Origin: a virus
IMG/VR virus record: IMGVR_UViG_3300037258_000026
Coordinates: 1 to 23,364 of that record
DNA: 23,364 bases
Reading direction: 5' to 3' (one strand)
Shown: positions 452-15,829 of the stretch, piece after piece
Position numbering within the stretch: the first letter of the stretch is position 1
Layout: the number at the start of each line of letters is the position of its first letter
The notes under the pieces: generated by a model
What the model was told of the DNA's origin: nothing
The model's input: only the letters and a program-made list of their open reading frames with translations
The model's database searches: none
Program-made: the position numbers and the translations under genes

Positions 452-3130
452 CTACGCCGGTGTCGTATCCTCAACACCCGATACTGCATAGGGCGACGTG
501 GGCTTCTGGATTTTCAGACCCGTGACATATGCCTGCGCCGCTCCCTGGATGGGACCGTAGGACATGCTGGGCGGCAAGAACGCCTGTGAGCACCTGCAAT
601 TGATGTACTCATTCGGAGGGGCTGATACGTCGCCCGGATACATCATCGAGGAACCGCCGACGATGAAGGGAGCGTTGAGTGGGCGCTCCTGAAGATCCGC
701 CATTCGATGCGTCGTCCTCGTGCGGGAATCGTGATGAGCCAACCAGACGTGCTTACCCACGACGGCAGGTGGCAGATTGCTCGCGTATCCATGTGCCGCT
801 TCGTTGTACGCCCCGATGGTGGCAGTCTGAGCAATCATCTTCGCCCGGTTCATTGACGCCTCATCGAACACCTTGTTGACCCTCGCTGCTATGGCGTCAC
901 GGCCTTCGCCATTCGCCACACCCTGCTGAAGCGCATCCGCTAGTTGCTTCGCCGTAGTACCCGTCACGGTCTGCGCTATCTCGGCTGCTCGGCGTTTGAG
1001 GATGCTCTGGACCGCGCCCAGCGACGACGAGTCGTCCGTGTCGATCGGTAATCCCACCTGGTTCTTCACTTCGTTCTGGGCGAGAATCCCGGCGATGTTG
1101 AGGTGGGGCTGGACTACCTGCTCCGTCTTGTTCGCCCAGAATCCGGGATCGAATATGTCGCTCGGATCCACATCGGGCAGCAACGTTGGCTCTGGTCCCT
1201 CGCCTTCGCCCACCTCTGGAAGCTGCGCTGCGGTTTCGGGGGGTTGCGTGTCCGCTTCGACGTCATCTGGAATGGGTTGAATCGGTGCGTTCTCGACTGA
1301 CTCACCGTCCTCCTTCATCTGTTGGACGACCGATGTCGGGGCTGATTCGCCTTCTAGGGTCTGCGATGGGACGGTGCTCCATTCCTCCGTCGTGTGGGTG
1401 TCGTCACCGGGCTGTGGGTACTTGGGCTTCTTCGCCGCCGCATAACCCGCAGCCACTACAGCAGCCGCTGTGAGAGGCAGCCCCGACGATGAGGATGCTG
1501 GCGGTGGTGCGATACGCCGTGGCTTTTGCTGACCTTGGTTCTGCTCCTCGGACGAGCGCTTGAGCAACCGTCCGCCACGCTTGCCCATCAGACGGCTGAT
1601 GGTGGAATGACGCTGGTCCTCGAAGTGTGCCGCCAACGCCGTCTGGAGCGGTCCCTCGACCTGTGTGTAGTTCTTCTGGTTCGCCGCCGCCGCCGCTTTG
1701 CGATGGCGAGCCGGGACGCCCTTGATGTGGCCCGTCTGCACTGGATGATGGCCCGGTCCGGCGTGGCGCACGTGGCGCAGAATGGCCGAGGTGCTCAGCA
1801 CCGGCACCTTCGTCTTAGGGCCGACCACCCGTAGTTGATGCACTGGGGCGGTGATGGGTTGGCCGCAACTGGCGCATGATGTGAGATTGCCACCACGGAA
1901 ACGGTGCTTCGACTTGCCCTCTAGGGCGGCATCAACTGCCTTGGCCTGGGCTGGTGTCGGCCCAGCCGGTAGGAAGTTGGCCGCTCCACTCGCATCACCG
2001 ATTCCAGCTGGATTGCCTTCGCCAACAAAACCATCACGAGTATCGACACCTCGATATCCCGCATTCTTCATGGCGTTCTCTAACGTTGCCTGAGCATCTT
2101 TGAGCTTCTGCTCGTCCTCATCCTCAGTAAGTTGCGTGCTCTGGATTCGGTCAGTGCTTGACAGTTGTACAGCCGCTATCGCCTGATCGTTCGCCGTATT
2201 CGTCGCCTTGTCGGCCGAATTGCCCTTGGCTAGAGCGAACGCTACGTCCTGTGTTTCTTCCTGCTGTGCTTGGGCCACATCGAGTTGGTCTGTGGACAAC
2301 GAATCCTCGGCGTCGTCGTAGCTCGTCTTTGCTGATTCCACTGCGGTGAGCGCCTGCTGTTGCTGCTGTGCCGCTTGCGCAGCAGTGGTACCTGTCGAAG
2401 ATGAGCCTGACGATGAGGATGCAGCGACCGCCGCTCCAGCTGCTGTCGGATTGGTTGCGGGGAACTTCTTCGCATCGGCAGCGAGCGTAGGGTTCGCTCC
2501 CGTTCCAGCCGAGTGCTGGTTGCCATAGAACGGATGGCCTGCGGCGTGGTCACCCTTACCCGTTCCCGTCCCGGCAGCTGCTGCTTGTGCCTTCGCCTGT
2601 TGGCGCTTCTCCTTGTCCTGCTGGAGCTTTTGCTTCGCATCCTTCGACGCCGTTTTCCCGGCCGTCTTGGATGCGGCTGACTTCTGCTGCTGTTGCGATT
2701 GGGCTTGACCCGACTTGTTGGACGACCCACTCTTCGTCGTCTTGCCGCTACCTGATCCATCGACCGTTCGTACACCGTCGAATTCGCTGACGACAATCGT
2801 GATGGCGCGACTGTTGCCGTGAGCGGCAGCCTTCATTGCTTCCCAGTGAGCCAGTGCAGCCGCTGCCTTTGCCTGTGTGTCGGGATGCACGTGTCCGGTG
2901 TGACCCTTGGACCACGGATTGTGACCCGTCGCCCATATCTTCATCACCGAGATCGCCATCGGAAGTGCCTCTTCGAAGGGATGACCCGATTTCTCGATGC
3001 CGCGAACAACGCCACGTATGTAGGGAGGCAAGCCTCCGGCGCGAGCGACCCAGTTGTCCGTGGTGCTGGCCGAGAATGGTGACTCGTCAATCCGCTGATA
3101 CATGACGATTGGTTCGTCCGTCATGGTCAT
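452..3130 (-). CDS. MuF-type minor head / head morphogenesis protein (892 aa)
   Basis: Likely a portal-associated minor head protein of the Mu gpF family. Residues about 28-105 (LPPYIRGVVRGI...HWEAMKA) match a short helical domain seen in many phage head proteins ('PPYIR..AIAIAV..W..G...AKAAAA..W'). Residues 125-345 are low-complexity Gln/Ala/Ser/Gly sequence that includes the motif GHPFYGNQH near residue 199, known from actinophage structural proteins. A CASC pair lies at 419-422. The C-terminal domain, about 700-855, carries the MuF signature: W796, D801, TRTTH (804-808), PGD (832-834) and the terminal INCRC (843-847). Its ATG overlaps the portal stop by four bases (ATGA). A second Met codon lies two codons in. 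The long disordered centre makes it larger than ordinary MuF proteins. Known members are minor capsid proteins and some are ejected with DNA; the exact role here is inferred. Confidence 0.88.
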   Translation of the reverse strand: MTMTDEPIVMYQRIDESPFSASTTDNWVARAGGLPPYIRGVVRGIEKSGHPFEEALPMAISVMKIWATGHNPWSKGHTGHVHPDTQAKAAAALAHWEAMKAAAHGNSRAITIVVSEFDGVRTVDGSGSGKTTKSGSSNKSGQAQSQQQQKSAASKTAGKTASKDAKQKLQQDKEKRQQAKAQAAAAGTGTGKGDHAAGHPFYGNQHSAGTGANPTLAADAKKFPATNPTAAGAAVAASSSSGSSSTGTTAAQAAQQQQQALTAVESAKTSYDDAEDSLSTDQLDVAQAQQEETQDVAFALAKGNSADKATNTANDQAIAAVQLSSTDRIQSTQLTEDEDEQKLKDAQATLENAMKNAGYRGVDTRDGFVGEGNPAGIGDASGAANFLPAGPTPAQAKAVDAALEGKSKHRFRGGNLTSCASCGQPITAPVHQLRVVGPKTKVPVLSTSAILRHVRHAGPGHHPVQTGHIKGVPARHRKAAAAANQKNYTQVEGPLQTALAAHFEDQRHSTISRLMGKRGGRLLKRSSEEQNQGQQKPRRIAPPPASSSSGLPLTAAAVVAAGYAAAKKPKYPQPGDDTHTTEEWSTVPSQTLEGESAPTSVVQQMKEDGESVENAPIQPIPDDVEADTQPPETAAQLPEVGEGEGPEPTLLPDVDPSDIFDPGFWANKTEQVVQPHLNIAGILAQNEVKNQVGLPIDTDDSSSLGAVQSILKRRAAEIAQTVTGTTAKQLADALQQGVANGEGRDAIAARVNKVFDEASMNRAKMIAQTATIGAYNEAAHGYASNLPPAVVGKHVWLAHHDSRTRTTHRMADLQERPLNAPFIVGGSSMMYPGDVSAPPNEYINCRCSQAFLPPSMSYGPIQGAAQAYVTGLKIQKPTSPYAVSGVEDTTPA

Positions 3131-6100
3131 GCTTCGGCCTCAGCGAGTGCCAGCAGCCCCATCTCATTCTGCTTGAACCAGTGGTGGAAGTCCGTTCCGC
3201 TGTACGGCATCACATCGACGTCGTCGTGGAGCAGCTTCGCCACGACCTCTAGCTCGGCTTCCGTCAAGTCATCATCCTCACGCACAGCGCCCTGCGAAGC
3301 GAGATGCTGCTGCATTTTCTCCTCGTCGTCCTCATCGAGGGAATCCTGCAGTTTGCCGTCGAGTCCGACCCACACGACGTTCTCGCGGTCCGGTCCGTGA
3401 ATCTGACCAGTGTCTTGGCGCTCGGCTTGGGGTAGGTCCACAACCTTGTCCACCTCGGTGGGACCACCGATCTTCGTCACAGCCTGGTTGTAATGATCGG
3501 CACACACAGGAACATACGCCGCACCTTCGGCCCATACGATCGCCTTGGTGGCGGGATGTGAGCCGTACTTGCAGTTCTGTGCGACCTTTAACCCGCCGCG
3601 CCGTACCTCCATGCTGTTGAGCATCCGATTGAGCTTCGCATCGTGCATGTCCGAATCCCACGGACCTTCGTCCTCATCCACACTCCCCACATAGGCCGCG
3701 ACGGTTGTGTGGCCTAGCTTCTCGTGCGCCTTCGTCCGGTGATAGCCGTCTGCGACCTTCAGCTTGACCGATCCGGGCGTCTTGACCAGCATGACGGGTG
3801 CCAGTGCTCCGGTATCGCCCTTGGCGATTCCCTGCGCTATCCCCGCTACTTTCTTCGGGTCACGTGCACCAGGGCGCCGCGCCATGTCGATCTGGTCCAG
3901 CGGTATCTGCTGCGGTCCTGACCAATCCGCGTCGTCCACCCAATCAAGTGTCGATTCGGGATAGTTCTGAGCCAGTGTGTCGTGGACGTGCTTCGTGGTC
4001 TGATCAGCCACGGCTAGTGCTCGGTAGTCCTGTGCCATTTGCGTTGTACGTTCCACCAGTTCGGCGCTGCGCTGACGCCGGTTCTCCAGCTGCGCCATAT
4101 CATGGCGTTCCTTGGCCCGATTGACCTTGCGAAGGATTGCCAACGCTTCCTGGTTCTCACGACTCCGGTGCGTCACCTCTGTGCTCCTCGCCTCAATGAC
4201 GCTACGGGGATAGACGTCAATGTGCTCGCGCTCTAGCCAATCGCTGGCACGGAACCTGTCCTCCCAGTTAAACGAATTCAATGGACGCTGCTCCCAACGG
4301 ATGCGTGCTGCGATGAGTTGGTCCTTCGTCACCCGCGTGCCGCGCCACGATGCGGAACGTCCTCCACCGCCGCCACTCATGCCCCCCGCTCCGGTGGCGG
4401 ACGACTCCTCGCCAATCTCTACCGTGTCGGTGTCCTCTTCGCCAGTGGAGTTGGCTGCCGGGATGCCCAGTACATTCGCCACCTGTGCCGCTGTGGCAAC
4501 ACCGAAGTTGATGACGTCCCCAATCATCGGAGGCTGGAAGATCGATGGTGGCTGGAGTGAGGCGACCTTGGACAGATCGAACCATCCAACTTCGGGACCG
4601 ATACGAGGAGCCAGCCGCTGGTTGACGTGATCCTGAATCTCGGTCAGCAGATTCATGATCGTGAGGGTCCAAAAGGTGTTGTGTTCCCAGAAGGTTCCCA
4701 GATACGTGTGACCATCTGGAATCTCAATCCCTACCGTTTGGTCAACACCTACATATTCGATGGTCTTAATGCGCTCCCACCGCAGGCCCGGATTCAGCTG
4801 TTGGGTACGCCACCCAGAATTGTTGCGCCCTCTAGATTCTGCAATCTGTCGGGCAGCATCTACGGCGCGTTGCTTGGCTGGAATACCGATCCGGTCACAG
4901 AACTTGAGGACTTCTTCTGCAATGTCGATCGACAAAGCATATGACCCGAACTTTTTCCCGGTCTTGTCTCGATCGAATCCCGTGGCTTGTGGGTTTCGAC
5001 GCACTATACGGGCGCTGATGCCGAAACGGATAAGAAGCTCTTGTACATCGAGCACCAACTGATGCGACACACTGACCAACGTGATGAAGGCCCGCGTATC
5101 TGTGGTCGATGCACACCCGTCTGCTGCAAATAGAGCCTGGAGATATGCCACCTGAACCTCGGGCGCAGCCGCAAATACTCCTGGTGTCACCAGTTTGTCG
5201 TGACCCTTGAGTCCCCATAGCCCTTCTTGCTCTAAGAACTTCCTGACTTTTCCACCCTTAATCCCCCACGTATCGCACCGTGGAGGGAGAGTCGTGTACT
5301 TGGTTACTTCGTCTCCCATTTCATGCACCGCGGCTTTGAAGGTATCTACCTCGGGACCATCGGGAGTAGTCAGCACGGGACTGGCAGTGGTCCTTACACA
5401 CCCATCGCCCGTGATAGCCCCAAGCACTGTGGCTTCTGCTTTCGTCATAGATCCATGGCCCGTCATTGGTAACTCAGTAGGGACCGCTACTAGATCACCA
5501 ATCTCTAGGTCTTTAATCGCCGTCCATCCGTGAATATCCACATGGACGGTTTCTCGTATCGCCCTACGTTCTGCCGAATCGCCGGTTCCTGTCACTGGGT
5601 GGCCCGGCTTGCGTCCTTGACGCCTGCGATATTCCTTAGCCGTCTGGTGGACACCCTTGTAAAGAGGATGCTTGGCTGTCACCTCAAGGCGCCGTCCTGA
5701 TTCGGTGGTCACCGCATAACAAGGCTCAATGGCCTGCCATGAAGCAGCTGCTTCAACCTCTTTCGTTCCACCTGGCGTGCTAGTTAGCATCGTAAATACT
5801 TTGCCCACCATGTCTTTAGCCTGATGACGTTCTCCATTGGCCAGACGTACATATTCCGAGGCCCGGAGGCAGCGATATTCCGAGTCGGCGTTCGCATAGA
5901 TCCGCTTCGACGCGTCTCCGATGAGCGAGATGCTGACGCCCAACGCAATCGTGATGTCCGTCTTGGCCTGGTTCGATATCGTCAGCAGTTCCGCTTCCAC
6001 CGCCGTCTGTGCGATCTTCTCGACCTGGATCAGTGGCTTGCCCGAGGTGTCATCCTCGTCATAGTCCGCCTCAGCAAAGATCGTCCGTCCCTTGGCATCC

Positions 6101-6915
6101 ACACCGCTGAACATCGTGTCGAACTGTTCCTGCCAGGCGCGACGAGCACTTGGTTCCTCAAAGGGTGGGGTCGTCACGATGGTCGTTGCCACCATGTCGT
6201 TCTCCAGCAGCTTGACCATGTAACGGTCCATGCCCTTGGCAATGTAGATCGGCAACTTTGCCGCACTCAGCACCGTCTCGGGCACGCGCCAGTCCGTCAG
6301 CGACGGTCGCCATGCGTAGATCATCCGATCGGCCTTCATCGGAAGGTCGCCGTCCATCGGCGTGGTGTAGACGTAGGAGTCGAAGTACCGCTGACCACCG
6401 TTCGATGGGACTGCCGAGACGCAGGCCGAGACAAGGGGCCACAACGCCACAATCTGCTTGCCCGTCAGCTGGGCTTCCCAGGCGAACTTCCCGTACACGA
6501 TGTACTGGCAAATGGTCCATGCCCAGAAAGCCCTACTCGCCGTGTCGGGGTTCGGGCCTCCCGGCGCTTGGGGTGTCGAACGCCCTAACAGCTGCACCAG
6601 GGGTGCCGTTGGGTCGTGGGTAGCGGGGTTCGTCGGGTCCATTCCAGCCCGGAATTCCAGCCCCGCAATCGTGTTGGCGATGAGTTGGACGCACCGCATG
6701 ACGTAGACCTGATTGAGGTAGGAGTCCTCACCGAATGCCTGCGCATCCATATCGAGGATCTGAGGCTGTCCCGGCGATTGCCAGTTGACGTTCTTGGTGG
6801 CAACGGTCGGGCCGTTCCTTCCGCCACCCGAGGTGCGCGGACCGATCAAGAGGTTGCCTAATCCTGCCTTCGGCACGAACGAACGGGTCAGCATTTCACT
6901 GAATCGGCTTGCCAT
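3127..6915 (-). CDS. Portal protein precursor with internal intein and C-terminal ParB-like domain (1262 aa)
   Basis: Forms the dodecameric DNA gate at the phage head vertex. The portal exteins are residues 1-348 and 747-about 830. The N-extein contains the segment VYVMRCVQLIANTIAGL and the conserved stretch ending YANADSEYR. The sequence resumes as TFWTLTIMNLLTEIQ and NQRLAP, as in HK97/SPP1-type portals. Between them sits a complete 398-residue intein. After the portal core come a Gly-rich linker (about 838-856), a charged helical region (900-975), a ParB/sulfiredoxin-like domain (about 1000-1083, with ADGYHRTKAHEKLG) and a CKYG...CADH metal-binding-like patch (1115-1141). The mature spliced protein would have about 864 residues. 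The start ATG overlaps the preceding stop (ATGA), and the stop overlaps the MuF start. The portal identity and intein are clear; the role of the ParB-like tail is not known. Confidence 0.92.
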   Translation of the reverse strand: MASRFSEMLTRSFVPKAGLGNLLIGPRTSGGGRNGPTVATKNVNWQSPGQPQILDMDAQAFGEDSYLNQVYVMRCVQLIANTIAGLEFRAGMDPTNPATHDPTAPLVQLLGRSTPQAPGGPNPDTASRAFWAWTICQYIVYGKFAWEAQLTGKQIVALWPLVSACVSAVPSNGGQRYFDSYVYTTPMDGDLPMKADRMIYAWRPSLTDWRVPETVLSAAKLPIYIAKGMDRYMVKLLENDMVATTIVTTPPFEEPSARRAWQEQFDTMFSGVDAKGRTIFAEADYDEDDTSGKPLIQVEKIAQTAVEAELLTISNQAKTDITIALGVSISLIGDASKRIYANADSEYRCLRASEYVRLANGERHQAKDMVGKVFTMLTSTPGGTKEVEAAASWQAIEPCYAVTTESGRRLEVTAKHPLYKGVHQTAKEYRRRQGRKPGHPVTGTGDSAERRAIRETVHVDIHGWTAIKDLEIGDLVAVPTELPMTGHGSMTKAEATVLGAITGDGCVRTTASPVLTTPDGPEVDTFKAAVHEMGDEVTKYTTLPPRCDTWGIKGGKVRKFLEQEGLWGLKGHDKLVTPGVFAAAPEVQVAYLQALFAADGCASTTDTRAFITLVSVSHQLVLDVQELLIRFGISARIVRRNPQATGFDRDKTGKKFGSYALSIDIAEEVLKFCDRIGIPAKQRAVDAARQIAESRGRNNSGWRTQQLNPGLRWERIKTIEYVGVDQTVGIEIPDGHTYLGTFWEHNTFWTLTIMNLLTEIQDHVNQRLAPRIGPEVGWFDLSKVASLQPPSIFQPPMIGDVINFGVATAAQVANVLGIPAANSTGEEDTDTVEIGEESSATGAGGMSGGGGGRSASWRGTRVTKDQLIAARIRWEQRPLNSFNWEDRFRASDWLEREHIDVYPRSVIEARSTEVTHRSRENQEALAILRKVNRAKERHDMAQLENRRQRSAELVERTTQMAQDYRALAVADQTTKHVHDTLAQNYPESTLDWVDDADWSGPQQIPLDQIDMARRPGARDPKKVAGIAQGIAKGDTGALAPVMLVKTPGSVKLKVADGYHRTKAHEKLGHTTVAAYVGSVDEDEGPWDSDMHDAKLNRMLNSMEVRRGGLKVAQNCKYGSHPATKAIVWAEGAAYVPVCADHYNQAVTKIGGPTEVDKVVDLPQAERQDTGQIHGPDRENVVWVGLDGKLQDSLDEDDEEKMQQHLASQGAVREDDDLTEAELEVVAKLLHDDVDVMPYSGTDFHHWFKQNEMGLLALAEAEA
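4678..5871 (-). mobile_element. Intein with LAGLIDADG homing endonuclease inside the portal gene
   Basis: In-frame protein intron, residues 349-746 of the portal precursor. Block A starts with Cys (CLRASEYVRLANG). Block B has the TxxH motif (VTAKHP, residues 412-417). Two dodecapeptide motifs of a LAGLIDADG homing endonuclease follow: LGAITGDGCV (498-507) and YLQALFAADG (591-600), both with the catalytic acidic residue. The C-terminal splice region reads DGHTYLGTFWEHN (734-746), with the penultimate His and terminal Asn, followed by Thr as the +1 nucleophile. All residues needed for protein splicing appear present, so it should be active. The insertion lies in a strongly conserved portal segment (SEYR / TFW), as expected for a homing site. 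By eye the DNA is more AT-rich than the flanking portal sequence, suggesting separate ancestry. Confidence 0.95.
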
Positions 6916-7112
6916 CAGGCGACTGCTCCCATATAGGTCGGCATTTCAGTGGGGTTCGGTGAACAGGTATGCACGTACTCAGCGGCGAGTGTGACCGAGC
7001 CACTCTCCGAAATAAGCGTCTTGACCACCAGCTGGACGAATCCGCCACACGCTGGGCATATGAAACCGTCAGCCGCCGAATCGCTCCTTGGCAACCGTGG
7101 CTGATAATTCAT
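6915..7112 (-). CDS. Small CxxC zinc-ribbon-like protein (65 aa)
   Basis: Unrecognised 65-residue protein with a CPACGG knuckle at residues 19-24 and a later HTC near residue 49, which together could bind one zinc ion. The ATG at 7112 has a good ribosome-binding site (AAGGA six bases upstream). Its stop overlaps the portal start in an ATGA. It overlaps the end of the upstream membrane-protein gene by 44 bases. Position just before the portal suggests co-transcription with head genes, but no function can be read. Confidence 0.7.
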   Translation of the reverse strand: MNYQPRLPRSDSAADGFICPACGGFVQLVVKTLISESGSVTLAAEYVHTCSPNPTEMPTYMGAVA

Positions 7113-7239
7113 TCAGATCCTTTTGAGGCATCCGTGCCAGCAGCACTGGCAGCATCGTCCGGGCGCAGTATCGCACTCCCAGGTAGAAGGATATTGCTGC
7201 TACTGCAACCAGTAGTGGGATGACTGCCCAGAGGGTCAT
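7069..7239 (-). CDS. Single-pass membrane protein (56 aa)
   Basis: Begins MTLWAVIPLLVAVAAISFYL, one clear N-terminal transmembrane helix, followed by a basic segment (RYCARTMLPVLLARMP) and a short polar tail (DLNELSATVAKERFGG). The start at 7239 was chosen over the longer frame start at 7311 because a strong GGAGAAGG site lies just upstream and the ATG overlaps the previous stop (ATGA). Short membrane proteins with an 'LARMP..L..L...V' tail occur in actinophage genomes near structural genes. No function is known. Confidence 0.75.
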   Translation of the reverse strand: MTLWAVIPLLVAVAAISFYLGVRYCARTMLPVLLARMPQKDLNELSATVAKERFGG

Positions 7240-8589: not shown

Positions 8590-8746
8590 GAACCTCCTGT
8601 GTCATCTTTGGCACGATCCGATACGCCATTCCTAGCACTGACGCTGCATTCGCCTCGATCTCTCCAGGTGTCTGTAGCTCCTGCACCTCAAAAGCCCACG
8701 GCTTCTTGCGGTGAAGCTCGGCAATCTTGACTGCCCTTGCGTGCAT
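8528..8746 (-). CDS. Small unknown protein (72 aa), overlapped at both ends
   Basis: Begins MHARAVKIAELHRKKPWAFE, continues with GEIEANAASVLGMAYRIVP and ends in a Gly/Glu/Ser-rich tail. The middle looks like a real globular helix pair. It overlaps the preceding gene by 59 bases and the following one by 62, which is unlike the four-base overlaps elsewhere. An alternative GTG at 8686, just after the upstream stop, would give about 52 residues. The upstream ribosome-binding site is weak for either start. Confidence 0.55.
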   Translation of the reverse strand: MHARAVKIAELHRKKPWAFEVQELQTPGEIEANAASVLGMAYRIVPKMTQEVHGEEASGGEGVTSSGAEGTS

Positions 8747-8915
8747 CTCGGAGTTGGCGACCCGGCTTTGGGTGGAGACGCCATTCGGGCACCTTGTCAT
8801 AGACCGTGTTGATGACCCAGTAGGCACCTCCGAATACAACGATCAGTGCGACACAGACGAGGATCACCTCGATGCTGCCGAGTAGTGCGTTCGTGTTGCG
8901 AGACGCCGCCAGCAT
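8688..8915 (-). CDS. Single-pass membrane protein (75 aa)
   Basis: Starts MLAASRNTNALLGSIEVILV and has one transmembrane helix (about residues 13-37), then VPEWRLHPKPGRQLRDARKG. A 'eWR.HP.GR.L' motif after a membrane helix is frequent in small actinophage membrane proteins. The ATG overlaps the stop of the potassium-channel gene (ATGA), supporting this start and suggesting translational coupling to the channel. It may be a partner of the channel, but nothing in the sequence proves that. Confidence 0.7.
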   Translation of the reverse strand: MLAASRNTNALLGSIEVILVCVALIVVFGGAYWVINTVYDKVPEWRLHPKPGRQLRDARKGSQDCRASPQEAVGF

Positions 8916-9274
8916 CAGGTCGCTTCCTTCTCGGCTTCCATTGCGGGGATGTCGAGGTGAGTGCTCATGTGCTCCAGGTGCCGGTGGAGTCGATCCGTCT
9001 CTCTCGATACGTGGTCTGTCGTAATCCCCGAGGTGATGAGTGAGAACGTCGCGGCAAACAGCGGAATGACGGTCAGCATCACCATCACCGCAACCACACG
9101 GCCCAACGGGTGAGTCGGAGTTACGTCCCCATAGCCCACCGTTGTGGCCGTTGTGACGGCCCAATAGAGCCCTGTGGTACTCGGTAGGTGCTCGATACCA
9201 GCAAAGACCAGACCGCCAGCGATATCTAGAACCGCCGCTGTACCAATGGTAACGAGTGCTCGCTTGTGCTTCAC
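8915..9274 (-). CDS. Two-transmembrane potassium channel (ion channel, Kcv/KcsA-like, about 119 aa)
   Basis: Predicted K+ channel subunit of the Ion_trans_2 type. From a GTG at 9274 the product has TM1 (RALVTIGTAAVLDIAGGLVF), a pore helix and the selectivity filter TTVGYGD at residues 44-50, then TM2 (about 58-84, VVAVMVMLTVIPLFAATF). A short His/Glu-rich cytosolic helix (DRLHRHLEHMSTHLD) follows. The filter is canonical, so potassium selectivity is expected, and four copies would form a pore in the host membrane. As sequenced the frame stays open upstream to 9571, giving a 218-aa fusion. The GTG was preferred because it forms a GTGA overlap with the stop of the other frame and lies just before TM1. 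No voltage-sensor or RCK domain is visible. Confidence 0.85.
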   Translation of the reverse strand: MKHKRALVTIGTAAVLDIAGGLVFAGIEHLPSTTGLYWAVTTATTVGYGDVTPTHPLGRVVAVMVMLTVIPLFAATFSLITSGITTDHVSRETDRLHRHLEHMSTHLDIPAMEAEKEAT

Positions 9275-9571
9275 TGGTCCCACTGAATGGGATGGTCCAG
9301 TCCTTGCTGACGCCGTTGCACCATCCGATGGTGGTGGTGAATCTCCTCCATCGTGAACTTCTTCCCCATCATGTCGGGATGGTGCTGGCGACACGCGCCA
9401 ACAGCCCTTCGTTCCACAGTTGTGCTTACGGTAGAGAAGCCATACACCACCGACGAGCGTGACCTCGCCAAGGTCGGCCCCGAATCCGCTCCACCATCCA
9501 TAGAAGGGGCCACCTTCGTTGACCGTTCCCGTCACGACCGCGAGCCAGTGCTGAAAGTGATGCCACCACAT
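9271..9571 (-). CDS. Membrane-associated His/Cys protein, apparently frameshifted
   Basis: The first 59 codons read MWWHHFQHWLAVVTGTVNEG and then GPFYGWWSGFGADLGEVTLV, a membrane segment, then YRKHNCGTKGCWR. This resembles a common actinophage protein type ('Y.fwSGfGsd.gE......yr.HNC...gC.R...C..HHP'). The expected continuation, CRQHHPDM then FTMEEIHHHH and a stop at 9271, lies in the +1 frame from about 9392. The segment is 301 bases, one more than a whole number of codons. Either one base was gained or lost (mutation or assembly error), a programmed frameshift occurs, or the gene is now fused to the channel through a Ser/Pro/Gly-rich linker (residues 60-99 of the 218-aa frame). The ATG at 9571 overlaps the previous stop. 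Confidence 0.6.
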
Positions 9572-9732
9572 CAGGCAGCCTTCCTCTTCCCGCAGTAGGA
9601 ACAGAACTCATGTGGTGGACACGAGGCTGGCAACGCTATGTCCCACACGTGGCCTCGCCAATTCGTGCAATACCAGCGACGGAGCCTCATGTGGAGTCGG
9701 TGCTTCGGAATCGTCACTGTCTCGGCACTCAT
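9571..9732 (-). CDS. Small basic CxxC protein (53 aa)
   Basis: Begins MSAETVTIPKHRLHMRLRRW and ends in a CSYCGKRK knuckle; WYCTNWRGHVWD lies between. The ATG at 9732 has a GGAAG site and forms an ATGA overlap with the previous stop. Cys and His residues suggest one zinc site; function is unknown. Confidence 0.68.
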   Translation of the reverse strand: MSAETVTIPKHRLHMRLRRWYCTNWRGHVWDIALPASCPPHEFCSYCGKRKAA

Positions 9733-9947
9733 TGGAACTTCCAGGCGTCGTCGTAGACAATAAACGCGCCACGTCGTGTGAAATGCCACACCTTGAGATT
9801 CCATATACCCAGGGTGAAGAGCAGACCCACGACGACCCACTTCTCCCACGCAAGTCGGCTATAGATGATGGATATGACCGTCAGTTCTCCCGATAGCGCG
9901 CAGAGAACGATACCGAGGCATCCTGCTATCAACCGTCTGTAGCTCAC
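9729..9947 (-). CDS. Two-helix membrane protein (72 aa)
   Basis: GTG start at 9947 directly after the TAG of the preceding gene. It has two hydrophobic helices: RLIAGCLGIVLCALSGEL near the N-terminus and KWVVVGLLFTLGIWNLKV in the middle, with a short polar C-terminus. One of several small membrane proteins next to the ion channel. No family recognised. Confidence 0.7.
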   Translation of the reverse strand: MSYRRLIAGCLGIVLCALSGELTVISIIYSRLAWEKWVVVGLLFTLGIWNLKVWHFTRRGAFIVYDDAWKFQ

Positions 9948-11890: not shown

Positions 11891-13456
11891 CTACGCCGCA
11901 ACCATGCCTGCGCCAACTACTGCAATCTTCGGCGGTGCGTCCGGCATACCCAGATCGGTTGAGTCCATCATCCGGCGCTTCTTCTTCTTACGCTCCTCCC
12001 AGAACGCCTGCACTACAGCATCGCCTTTGTCCGTCGATCGCCCGATGCGCTTCTTGATCTCCTTCTTCGGTTCGATGAGGATTCGGCTGTCACTCTGTAC
12101 CGTCCAGTGTGGTGCCGTGAGGTCACCAAGTAGCTCAGGATCGTCTGGCAATTCGATGTCGGGATCATTGGAGGGGTCGAGTTTTTCCCTGAGCGCCCAC
12201 CACGCGGCGGCTCGCTTATTGACGAACCCCAGTTCACCCGACTTATCCTTGGCGTCCGATTTCGCACCGGCATGGAACGCCACGACGGGATGCCCCTGTT
12301 CTCGTAGACGGTCCGTGACGCCCGCTCCTAGGCCGTCTGTGTCCACGATCGCTATAGCGCCGGGGTTGGCGTCCAGTACGCCCTTGACAAGTCCTGTTGT
12401 CACCATGAGGTCGCTGTACTTGCTCGGTCGCAACTCCTGGATGCGGCTTCCATAGCGGAGTGCTTGAACCGTCACGTCCTCGCCCGAGCGCGCTACGTCC
12501 ACTCCATCGGTCGTGAGGGGTCCTAACTCACGGCCTTCGTTCGCCTTCCAGCGTTCCACCGCAGCCTCGATCCAGCTGAGCGGGATAACGCCGTCCTCAG
12601 CGGACGACATGAACTCACCCAGCACACGGTTGGCATAGGCCGCGCTCGTTGCTCCCCACATGAGCTTGGCATCTTCGGCCCATTTACGGCTGACCCGTCC
12701 GGCTGTGATCGCCATCTCCAGCGTGACGTGGAATGCGTGCCACATGGGGAACTTCGGAGTCCGAGCGTGGATCTCATAGAACACCCCATTTGGCTCACCC
12801 GGAGTCGAGCACGCCAGTGCGAATGCCTCGGTCGTCTCCTCGTCACCCGAGAAGGCACCTTCGGCTGCTTCCCATGTTTTGGCTTCTATCGCTTTGGCCT
12901 CATCGAATACGTAGAGGATCGAGTCAGCGTGTGCACCTTCGATGAAGTCGGCGTTGTCGGACGCCACCGCGAATGCCGTTCCGTGCTTCAGGTTGATATG
13001 GAGGCTCAGCAGTTCGTGGCGAGTAAATGGTCCACGACCCAATCGTTCCCACCGGATGCGCTTTGCCCACTTGTGGATTTCAGGCCACAAGTACTTCTCC
13101 AGCTGGCGCCACGCACCAGCGGTACTAATAACCTTCCAATCCTTCTCCGCTGCTTCTCGTGTGATAACGAACCACAGGATCGCCAGCGCTTCAGTCGCTG
13201 TCTTTCCCAATCCATGAGGACCGCGTACTCCCACCCGCTTGTACTTGATGAGACGTCGGAGCGTTTCTTCCTGATATGGAGTGATCTCTTGACCTTCGGG
13301 CCACTCGATGCAGTCGTGGATGAATGCCACAGGATCGTAGTAGTAGTTCCGTAAACGAACAGTCGCTGCTTTCTGACGTCGATCCTTCGCCGCCTTGTAT
13401 CGTTCCCACTTCTCCTCGGGTGCGAGAATAACGGGAACCGTCTGGATGACGGGCAT
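11891..13456 (-). CDS. terL: Terminase large subunit (521 aa)
   Basis: ATP-driven DNA packaging motor and nuclease that docks on the portal and cuts concatemeric phage DNA. The N-terminal ATPase has Walker A GPHGLGKT (residues 79-86) and Walker B ILYVFDEA (180-187, acidic pair D185-E186). A TAGAWRQLE segment (112-120) precedes a likely coupling region around ACSTPGE (215-221). The C-terminal RNase H-like nuclease shows acidic residues in TTDGVDVARSGED (315-327), IVDTDGLGAG (370-379) and STDKGDAVVQAF (474-485). Length fits the family. The ATG at 13456 is preceded by GGAGAAG. It follows the putative small subunit, with two short genes between, and is separated from the portal by about 5 kb of accessory genes. 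Confidence 0.96.
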   Translation of the reverse strand: MPVIQTVPVILAPEEKWERYKAAKDRRQKAATVRLRNYYYDPVAFIHDCIEWPEGQEITPYQEETLRRLIKYKRVGVRGPHGLGKTATEALAILWFVITREAAEKDWKVISTAGAWRQLEKYLWPEIHKWAKRIRWERLGRGPFTRHELLSLHINLKHGTAFAVASDNADFIEGAHADSILYVFDEAKAIEAKTWEAAEGAFSGDEETTEAFALACSTPGEPNGVFYEIHARTPKFPMWHAFHVTLEMAITAGRVSRKWAEDAKLMWGATSAAYANRVLGEFMSSAEDGVIPLSWIEAAVERWKANEGRELGPLTTDGVDVARSGEDVTVQALRYGSRIQELRPSKYSDLMVTTGLVKGVLDANPGAIAIVDTDGLGAGVTDRLREQGHPVVAFHAGAKSDAKDKSGELGFVNKRAAAWWALREKLDPSNDPDIELPDDPELLGDLTAPHWTVQSDSRILIEPKKEIKKRIGRSTDKGDAVVQAFWEERKKKKRRMMDSTDLGMPDAPPKIAVVGAGMVAA

Positions 13457-13863: not shown

Positions 13864-14558
13864 ACCACCACTGGAACGCCAGCTAATCCGTCGTCCCCAT
13901 CCTCGTCATCCCAAGCGGGAATGTCCTCTCCATCGGACCACGAGCGAGCCTCCAGTGCGTCCGCCTCCGCTTCGATGCGTTCGATCGCCTCGTCCAGTTG
14001 CTCCTCGGTGATGACCATTTGCTGGATACGGATAGGTGCGTCGAGTCCCAACATCGCCGCTCGGCGTTCCATGATCTTGATGCAGCGGTCCGCTGCCAAT
14101 CGATCGCCTCGCAATGCCTGGACGTAGAGCGGACGCCACAGGGCGTCTAGGCGCCGCACTTCCATACGGCGCACGTACTCCATGGAATCGGGAACCGTGC
14201 GTTCAAGCACACGCATGACGGCCTTTCGGGCCGCACCACCGTCGTTGTACTGGAGTTGGTCCGCAATCTGCTGGTATGTCATTCCCGCGGCACGCAATTC
14301 GAACGCTTCGGCCTCCTTCTTTGCTGCGACGATCATGGAAGGTGCGCCGGGGCGACGACTCACGGGTGTATAGCCCTTCTCCTTGGGCATTAGAGATGCT
14401 TCTTTTGCGCCTCGGGCTAAGCGTGACGGAGTACGTGATTTCTTCGGAGCCTGCTTTCGGACCTTCTTTGCGGACGCAGCTGCCTCTGTGGTGGCTTTCT
14501 TGGCTGGGCGCTTCCGTACCGGCTTCTCGGGTGCTGATTCTGCGGGCTCGGCACTCAT
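13860..14558 (-). CDS. Putative terminase small subunit (232 aa)
   Basis: Probable DNA-recognition subunit of the packaging motor. Residues 1-75 are a Lys/Arg/Ala-rich disordered tail (KRPAKKATTEAAASAKKVRK). A helix-turn-helix follows at about 84-117 (AFELRAAGMTYQQIADQLQY ... ARKAVMRVLER). Then come helices of the type RRLDALWRPLYVQALRGDRLAADRCIKIMERRAAMLGLDAP, given here in outline, which are typical of small-terminase-like HTH proteins next to terL in actinophages. The acidic C-terminus (EDIPAWDDEDGDD) could contact the large subunit. The ATG at 14558 overlaps the methyltransferase stop. Assignment rests on HTH content, length and location. Confidence 0.75.
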   Translation of the reverse strand: MSAEPAESAPEKPVRKRPAKKATTEAAASAKKVRKQAPKKSRTPSRLARGAKEASLMPKEKGYTPVSRRPGAPSMIVAAKKEAEAFELRAAGMTYQQIADQLQYNDGGAARKAVMRVLERTVPDSMEYVRRMEVRRLDALWRPLYVQALRGDRLAADRCIKIMERRAAMLGLDAPIRIQQMVITEEQLDEAIERIEAEADALEARSWSDGEDIPAWDDEDGDDGLAGVPVVV

Positions 14559-15829
14559 GGGGCCTCCACGGTGAAGTCATGGGGCTCGCCACTCGATTCC
14601 AGTACGGGCTTGACACCCGTCACGCGCTGGAATCGGGCCAGCATCGTATCGACGTAGAACGGGTCAATGTCCATAGTGCGACACGCCCGTCCAGCGGAAA
14701 TGCACCCGACGAGCGAGGTGCCTGAACCACCGAAGGGGTCCAGCACGATATCCCCGGCTTTCGATGAGTTGCTAAGTGCCCTCACCGCTAGTTCTACTGG
14801 CTTTTGAGTCGGGTGCAGATCGTTCCGTGTCGGCTGCTCAACATCCCATACCGACACTTCGTTGGTCGGCCCATACCACCAAGGAGCCTTCCCACGACGG
14901 TGCAGGTAGAGACACGGCTCGTGACGCTGCATGTACTGGGCCATGAACGCCCCGTAGTGGGGATTGAGCTTGTTCCAGATGATCTGACTACGGACCTCCA
15001 GGTTGACGGCCCCCACCGCGTCGTAGACCGCCTGACCCTCCGATCCGGCGAACCACAGGTACCACGGTGCCCGGTCCTCGGCCTGCTGCATGATGACGGG
15101 TAGCGCCGCTAGGTACAGCGACGAGTCAGTATCGCCTTCGATGCCCTTCCGGGCCTCTTTTTCCTGCTGACCGCCCGTGTAGTCCACTCCATAGGGTGGA
15201 TCGGTCAACACCAGGTGGGCCTTCTGGCCGTTCATTAGTGCCGCTAGATCCGCCGTATCGGTGGCATCGCCGCAGCTCACACGGTGTGTGATGCCTCCGG
15301 CCTCGCACAGCCACACATCGCCACGCTTGGACTGAATGTCGCCCGCTGGTGTCGGTACCTCGTCGGGTTCCACCACGACGGGGGGATTCAGCCGGTGTTG
15401 AAGGTCTTTGAGGTACTGATCGTCGTAACCAGTCGCCAAAAACAACGCCTCATCGTCAGCAACGTCGAGGATCATCGCCAGTAGGGCTTCGTTGTCCCAT
15501 TCGCCCAGCTCAGACGATCGATTGTCCGCCAAGGCCAGGGCGTGGGCACGCTTGTCGTCCATTTCGACCCACACGACGGCTATCTCGGACCATTTCAGTA
15601 CGTCGCGGGCAGCGAGCAGCCGGTGGTTGCCGATGATGACCTCGCCACGGCCACGGCTACCCTTCTTCTTCCTCGCTACTAGGGCGTTGACCTGCCCGAA
15701 CTTGCGCAGCGACTCCGCTACGGCCTCGATATTGCCTCGGCGTGGGTTGCCTTCAAGCAGGTCCAGCTTGTCGATCGGGAACGCCAGTCCCGCTAAATCA
15801 GCTGCGATTTGTCCCGAAGTGGTGCTCAC
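14555..15829 (-). CDS. DNA (N6-adenine or N4-cytosine) methyltransferase with N-terminal ParB-like domain (424 aa)
   Basis: Predicted to methylate DNA with SAM. Residues about 14-105 form a ParB/sulfiredoxin-like domain: GNPRRGNIEAVAESLRKFGQ, VIIGNHRLLAAR (64-75) and HALALADNRSSE. The catalytic part has motif IV DPPY (210-213), LHPTQKPVELAVRAL (338-352) and the SAM-binding motif DPFGGSGTS (364-372), then MDIDPFYVD. DPPY before the FGGSG motif marks the beta class. The start is GTG at 15829 with a GGAG site; no in-frame ATG lies close upstream. No cognate restriction enzyme is next to it, so it is probably an orphan enzyme protecting phage DNA or acting before packaging. Placement just upstream of the terminase genes is common in actinophages. 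Confidence 0.94.
   Translation of the reverse strand: MSTTSGQIAADLAGLAFPIDKLDLLEGNPRRGNIEAVAESLRKFGQVNALVARKKKGSRGRGEVIIGNHRLLAARDVLKWSEIAVVWVEMDDKRAHALALADNRSSELGEWDNEALLAMILDVADDEALFLATGYDDQYLKDLQHRLNPPVVVEPDEVPTPAGDIQSKRGDVWLCEAGGITHRVSCGDATDTADLAALMNGQKAHLVLTDPPYGVDYTGGQQEKEARKGIEGDTDSSLYLAALPVIMQQAEDRAPWYLWFAGSEGQAVYDAVGAVNLEVRSQIIWNKLNPHYGAFMAQYMQRHEPCLYLHRRGKAPWWYGPTNEVSVWDVEQPTRNDLHPTQKPVELAVRALSNSSKAGDIVLDPFGGSGTSLVGCISAGRACRTMDIDPFYVDTMLARFQRVTGVKPVLESSGEPHDFTVEAP

Follow-up and report, generated by a model that had tools for sequence, protein, structure and literature searches.

A K+ channel homologue and its partner membrane protein in an apparently undescribed phage family with recurrent filter-less versions

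The stretch of DNA analyzed here (the window) is a soil phage fragment of 23,364 bases that almost certainly encodes a homologue of K+ channels, and this protein apparently belongs to an undescribed phage family in which the channel is paired with a second membrane protein. K+ channels have been described from phages before; new here are the family with its partner, the adjacency to lysin genes in some of its members, and the versions that lack the K+ filter. With regard to function, we see about an even chance that the pair forms a late-expressed membrane module that alters the conductance of the host membrane and so probably helps to time or carry out lysis.

The channel gene is read on the minus strand from a GTG at 9274 to the stop at 8915, and direct translation gives a product of 119 aa, VKHKRALVTIGTAAVLDIAGGLVFAGIEHLPSTTGLYWAVTTATTVGYGDVTPTHPLGRVVAVMVMLTVIPLFAATFSLITSGITTDHVSRETDRLHRHLEHMSTHLDIPAMEAEKEAT; the plus-strand frame at 8915-9274 is interrupted by stops. 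The GTG was taken as the start because of the relatives and of the GTGA overlap with the upstream stop. The same frame is open up to an ATG at 9571, and a 218-aa fusion product was considered and disfavoured, as the partner gene of the relatives lies in another frame and stops at the channel start; long open frames such as 9571 to 8915 also arise by chance in GC-rich relatives.

The initial annotation had described a first transmembrane helix, a pore helix, the filter TTVGYGD and a second transmembrane helix without giving a strand, an order that translation, hydropathy and an AlphaFold model bore out. Hydropathy marked two hydrophobic helices (residues 6-24 and 60-78) with the pore helix and TTVGYGD between them, and the AlphaFold prediction, run for the monomer on an alignment of 14 relatives, placed helices at residues 2-28, 32-44, and 56-106 (mean pLDDT 84.9), with the filter loop between two membrane helices. 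The window thus encodes, in a tailed phage genome, a short two-TM G(Y/F)GD protein whose T-x-G-Y/F-G-D filter and pore helix lie between the two membrane helices. Foldseek ranked NaK as the best match of the model (E = 4e-4), with KcsA matched at TM 0.60-0.62 and approximately 30% identity. The profile search suggested at the outset agreed with this, as Pfam Ion_trans_2 (PF07885) matched with 51.7 bits (E = 7.9e-14; curated cut-off 22.5), and further matches were obtained with PHROG 7872 (E = 2.6e-16) and PHROG 14690 (E = 3e-15), the latter labelled 'cAMP-dependent Kef-type K+ transporter'. All six letters of TVGYGD as well as P71 of the second helix are invariant in alignment A3 (14 sequences). 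The short His/Glu-rich C-terminal segment recognized earlier was also found, with 5 His and 8 Asp/Glu in residues 85-119. Pfam matched the pore only and the protein ends at residue 119, the RCK domain of bacterial MthK/Kch-type channels being absent. The model is consistent with a minimal channel, predicted to be of the tetrameric type, with two membrane helices and a pore loop but without a gating domain, and the canonical filter predicts K+ selectivity, K+ being the likely ion here.

Table 1. Coordinates of the channel, its parts and neighbouring genes in the window, and loci of the filter-less relatives
Feature	Position	Strand	Basis
K+ channel gene	8915..9274	-	translation; PF07885 51.7 bits; PHROG 7872/14690; NaK/KcsA fold (predicted)
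First membrane helix, residues 6-24	9203..9259	-	hydropathy; model helix 2-28
Pore helix, residues 32-44	9143..9181	-	AlphaFold model
Selectivity filter TTVGYGD, residues 44-50	9125..9145	-	direct reading; alignment A3
Second membrane helix, residues 56-84, conserved P71	9023..9109	-	model; alignment A3
His/acid-rich C-terminal tail	8918..9022	-	translation, model, composition
Partner, first part, MWWHHFQHW...HNCGTKGCWRV, first Cys pair of zinc-knuckle-like motif, frame of the channel	9392..9571	-	profile positions 22-77, 46.2 bits
Partner, last part, other frame, CRQHHPDMMGKKFTMEEIHHHHR...; TGA stop overlaps channel GTG	9271..9396	-	profile positions 89-119, 13.3 bits
One-helix membrane protein directly after channel, TGATG stop/start overlap	8688..8915	-	hydropathy
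Portal protein with intein	3127..6915	-	PF04860 E = 1.7e-24; LAGLIDADG_3
Terminase large subunit TerL	11891..13456	-	phrog_2 E = 1.9e-31; 52% identity to Streptomyces phage TurkishDelight
Filter-less channel-fold proteins after partner	L268, L271, L273, L276, L277, L282-L287, L292, L297, L307, L030, L033		

The channel gene is placed between the genes for TerL and the portal protein. TerL is also 48% identical to that of Actinoplanes phage phiAsp2 and, together with the similarity to the TurkishDelight protein, this makes an actinobacterial host likely; megablast of the whole window against phages gave no match. The cluster of small membrane proteins described in the initial annotation (8688-8915, 9729-9947, and 7069-7239) was recovered with at least one hydrophobic helix in each, and the product of 8688-8915 had no family match among the Pfam, PHROG, and PADLOC models. 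Searches with PF01183 and PF01510 found no endolysin in the 23-kb window. The intein of the portal protein carries a LAGLIDADG domain and the C-terminal end of the same gene product a ParB-like domain, while another frame (14555-15829) fuses a ParB-like N-terminal domain to an N6/N4 DNA methyltransferase.

Directly upstream of the channel sits a partner gene (9571 to 9271) that had been overlooked at first. Across the family, the partner is a small membrane protein of approximately 100-130 aa whose Cys/His pattern resembles a zinc knuckle. Its G, Y, SG, and three Cys (C71, C76, and C92) are invariant, and one His is nearly so. No Pfam family covers it, and four queries, the first of them the two frame pieces of the window joined by hand, matched none of 50,697 phage records. 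In all approximately 30 non-redundant phage channel loci inspected, the partner lies immediately upstream of the channel on the same strand, usually with a 4-nt overlap of its stop and the channel start (ATGA or GTGA), which points to coupled translation. In the window itself, the partner profile matched residues 1-60 of the frame from 9571 and residues 40-70 of the second frame ending at 9271, with a change of frame near 9392-9397 and the loss, in comparison with the relatives, of profile positions 78-88 (approximately 11 residues between the Cys pairs). Damage to the gene, a translational frameshift, or an assembly error would each account for this, and as the gene is interrupted, the module may be impaired here. 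A 22-row alignment of the partner proved too diverse for scanning and a 7-row subset worked, while the first regular expression for the partner missed approximately 10 true cases that were recovered by eye. Partner and channel distances were weakly correlated (r = 0.21, Mantel 0/5000), which leaves strong co-evolution of the two proteins unsupported. The gene after the partner in three loci (L274, L278, and L288) encodes a one-helix coiled-coil protein of approximately 107-112 aa, similar among the three, possibly another membrane protein of the lysis region.

When viral contigs were scanned at the protein level with the window sequence alone, no relatives emerged. The first homologue (L021), 45% identical to the window channel, lies beside TerS/TerL; a two-sequence alignment with it found approximately 12 more, and a wider alignment reached 80 loci each from viruses and bacteria, many only distantly related. 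After removal of copies, the family comprises 48 distinct channel sequences, all with a partner gene and nearly all in uncultivated phages. Neither a description of the partner/channel pair nor one of a holin with a K+-channel fold was found in the open-access literature searched. The bacterial relatives, RCK-like by eye, come without the partner, the sole exception among the bacterial loci fetched being a contig of a Frankiaceae MAG (L105), where partner and channel stand amid FAD-linked oxidase, CrcB-like, and MFS-like genes (assigned by eye); this pair is possibly a cellular source or a phage remnant. A partner search of 396 genomes of the same phylum found five intact matches, plus one whose frame contains stops, and among the short stretches fetched for the five intact ones, only the Frankiaceae genome had a channel after the partner. 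In an actinobacterial genome (L310), a 240-aa frame adjacent to a His-rich cation-efflux-like gene has the partner domain at its end, and no channel was found within the 3.3-kb stretch fetched.

The terminase-portal interval given as the site of the gene in the initial annotation holds for the window, where both flanking genes were matched, but not as a fixed home. For instance, the pair precedes TerS/TerL in three relatives (L021, L030, and L033), and in some others the module lies between the head-tail adaptor and the tail terminator. The PHROGs found near relatives include the head-tail adaptor (phrog_442), tail terminator (phrog_17840), major head protein (phrog_10), major tail protein, and connector. 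Where the surroundings are readable, the module thus lies among late packaging, head, and tail genes, at varying spots. In some relatives it also neighbours lysin genes: an endolysin is the next gene after the channel in L089 (phrog_291 E = 1e-18, PF01183) and L273 (phrog_1493 E = 1e-15), the next gene in L208 has a weaker endolysin match (phrog_291 E = 7e-4), and two further loci are weaker cases, with a GH25 gene approximately 250 nt after the channel in L276 (28.4 bits) and a next gene homologous to a lysin-like protein in L098. Partners that occur without a channel can have the same neighbours, with a GH25 endolysin directly next in L298 and L301 (PF01183, 40.4 and 58.1 bits) and a lysin close by in L302 (GH25) and L289 (endolysin). 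Such adjacency is occasional, as a lysin-like gene comes next in only approximately 5 of the 48 channel loci, many contigs being short fragments; searches of whole records found GH25 in only 6/46, and Amidase_2 endolysins in only 2/39, where no adjacency to the module was seen. Nine loci have a VIT-like gene (Fe/Mn transporter family, 21 bits, below the Pfam cut-off), which in seven of them lies two genes before the channel. Small VIT/CCC1-like membrane proteins were observed in the cassettes of L095, L097, L098, L100, L185, and others.

Scanning with the partner profile and reading the gene after the partner uncovered homologues without the TVGYGD filter (Table 1), which make up 16 of the 48 family members, while the other 32, the window channel included, keep a TVGYGD-type filter. 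Most filter-less members read YCxxGxxTTxGC(D). The aromatic position of the pore helix (W or F in 32/32 canonical sequences) is Cys in 13/16 of them, a second pore-helix position (T, V, E, A, or S in canonical sequences) is Gly or Ala in 16/16, and the YG of the filter is replaced by Cys in 12/16, and the loop is usually shortened by one residue. The cysteines occur together, 12 sequences having both and one sequence only one (Fisher p = 2e-10 overall and 0.007 within the filter-less group, descriptive values as the sequences are non-independent). They fall at the positions of interacting aromatic residues of pore helix and filter in KcsA, and a disulfide between them is conceivable. The predicted fold of a Cys variant is still the NaK/KcsA pore, its alignment having held three canonical rows. 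As several filter-less members score under the Pfam cut-off, they would escape a search by domain. When the filter columns were excluded from tree building, five changes were required to account for the filter-less rows, at least four of them on well-supported branches; this number is approximate (93 columns, some long branches), and the tree by itself does not set the direction of gain or loss. A single origin was rejected under the model (AU p = 2.5e-6, same 93 columns with the filter columns left out). Pairwise dN/dS (NG86) ranged from 0.08 to 0.59 in canonical and from 0.10 to 0.39 in filter-less members, which indicates that both versions are maintained by purifying selection.

In the reading that we prefer, the channel is the second gene of a two-gene module, after the zinc-knuckle-like small membrane protein, and the products would be made late in infection and inserted into the host membrane. 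There the pore would alter membrane conductance and potential, with the partner presumably acting as an assembly or gating subunit, and the altered conductance would contribute to the timing or execution of lysis. From its place among genes for packaging, head, and tail, the module is probably produced late, and the late position, the constant membrane partner, and the occasional endolysin adjacency together make a late role at the host membrane, probably linked to lysis, the best guess. For the phage of the window, the lysis link would hold by analogy with its relatives. A plain holin fits poorly, because a K+-selective pore alone pulls the membrane toward the K+ equilibrium potential and does not simply depolarise it. 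The existence of 16 homologues without the filter speaks against K+ selectivity as a family-wide requirement, and as these homologues occupy the same gene position, membrane conductance or the scaffold itself may be what these phages generally need, more than K+ as such. A bolder form of the lysis reading, which we regard as speculative and rather doubtful, is that this phage-specific family of K+-channel fold with its new partner is a lysis-linked pore in which the filter was repeatedly exchanged for a shorter paired-cysteine loop (YCxxGxxTTxGC), the scaffold being recurrently remade into a different pore.

Of the roles proposed in the initial annotation, lysis has gained some support from the endolysin neighbours of relatives, and nothing favours DNA entry or a block of superinfection over it. 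In the latter two cases, the channel would clamp the membrane potential against the DNA of a second phage or aid entry of the phage's own DNA, with no role in lysis. Small membrane proteins are common exclusion factors, and the module is mobile between positions. Entry of T4 and T5 DNA involves changes in host K+ conductance, according to the passages of PMC6163359 that cite this work. Exclusion or entry is nevertheless unlikely in our judgement, as the module lies in late packaging and structural regions, in some relatives beside endolysins, and not in an early region, and no PADLOC defence model matched channel or partner. The late structural context would equally suit a regulated K+ efflux that tunes turgor or the internal K+ level to packaging and assembly, and the VIT-like gene upstream suggests an ion-transport cassette, but such osmotic or ionic tuning seems improbable given that the K+ filter is dispensable in one third (16/48) of the relatives. 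The channel could also be a host-derived passenger (moron) of little consequence, i.e., a captured actinobacterial two-TM channel without the RCK domain. The best cellular relatives, from Actinomycetota and some Bacillota, are indeed two-TM channels with a further domain (RCK-like by eye), and the pair on the Frankiaceae contig stands amid bacterial genes; purifying selection, the near-constant pairing with the partner, and the spread across very diverse phages speak against this origin, which we hold to be quite improbable. That the protein is a channel-fold scaffold or partner subunit with incidental conduction appears least probable of all, since repeated filter loss in proteins that keep both helices, P71, and the partner would fit it, but a perfect TVGYGD-type filter in 32/48 members, including the window channel, is hard to explain without K+ binding.

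Since the first listing of phage K+ channels, their purpose has been an open question, and the constant partner, the late position, the occasional endolysin adjacency, and the natural filter-less versions make this question directly testable. The repeated independent change of a motif that ranks among the most conserved of membrane biology, in a protein that stays under selection, would also be a natural experiment on the potential of the K+ channel scaffold.

A canonical-filter channel among the structural genes of a tailed phage had initially been regarded as unusual; K+ channels in tailed phages as such have precedents. Two-TM K+ channel genes were reported from Mycobacterium phages Myrna and Phabba, Streptomyces phage BillNye, vibriophages, and Acinetobacter and Pseudomonas phages, and a four-TM K+ channel gene from Lactobacillus phage PLE, all with unknown function (Greiner et al. 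2018, PMC6163359), and our protein search with the channel matched 34 phage records. The channels of Myrna, Phabba, and BillNye resemble that of the window in length (119-123 aa), two helices, a K+-channel filter, and their occurrence in tailed phages of Actinobacteria, while those of Phabba and BillNye share 28% identity with it (alignment A1). They differ in surroundings: the Phabba gene lies beside nucleotide-metabolism genes and the BillNye gene among tRNAs and small hypothetical genes, in contrast to the packaging and structural genes of the window, and no annotated neighbour product in these two phages resembles the partner. With KcsA of Streptomyces lividans and with NaK, the window channel shares the predicted pore fold, but it has P71 near the usual glycine hinge of the second helix and a short acidic/His tail, is viral, and is accompanied by a partner gene. 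The closest cellular relatives of the pore are the two-TM channels of Actinomycetota (approximately 45-70% over short matched stretches), which fall in the same part of the tree and carry a further C-terminal domain (RCK-like by eye), whereas the phage protein ends approximately 35 residues after the second helix. Kcv-type channels of chloroviruses, likened here by these features alone, likewise combine a minimal viral pore module with a canonical filter, but belong to a eukaryotic virus and have an established role in infection. The module of the window matched no holin family, while the spot just before the endolysin, as for phage holin genes, is filled in some relatives by the channel or its partner.
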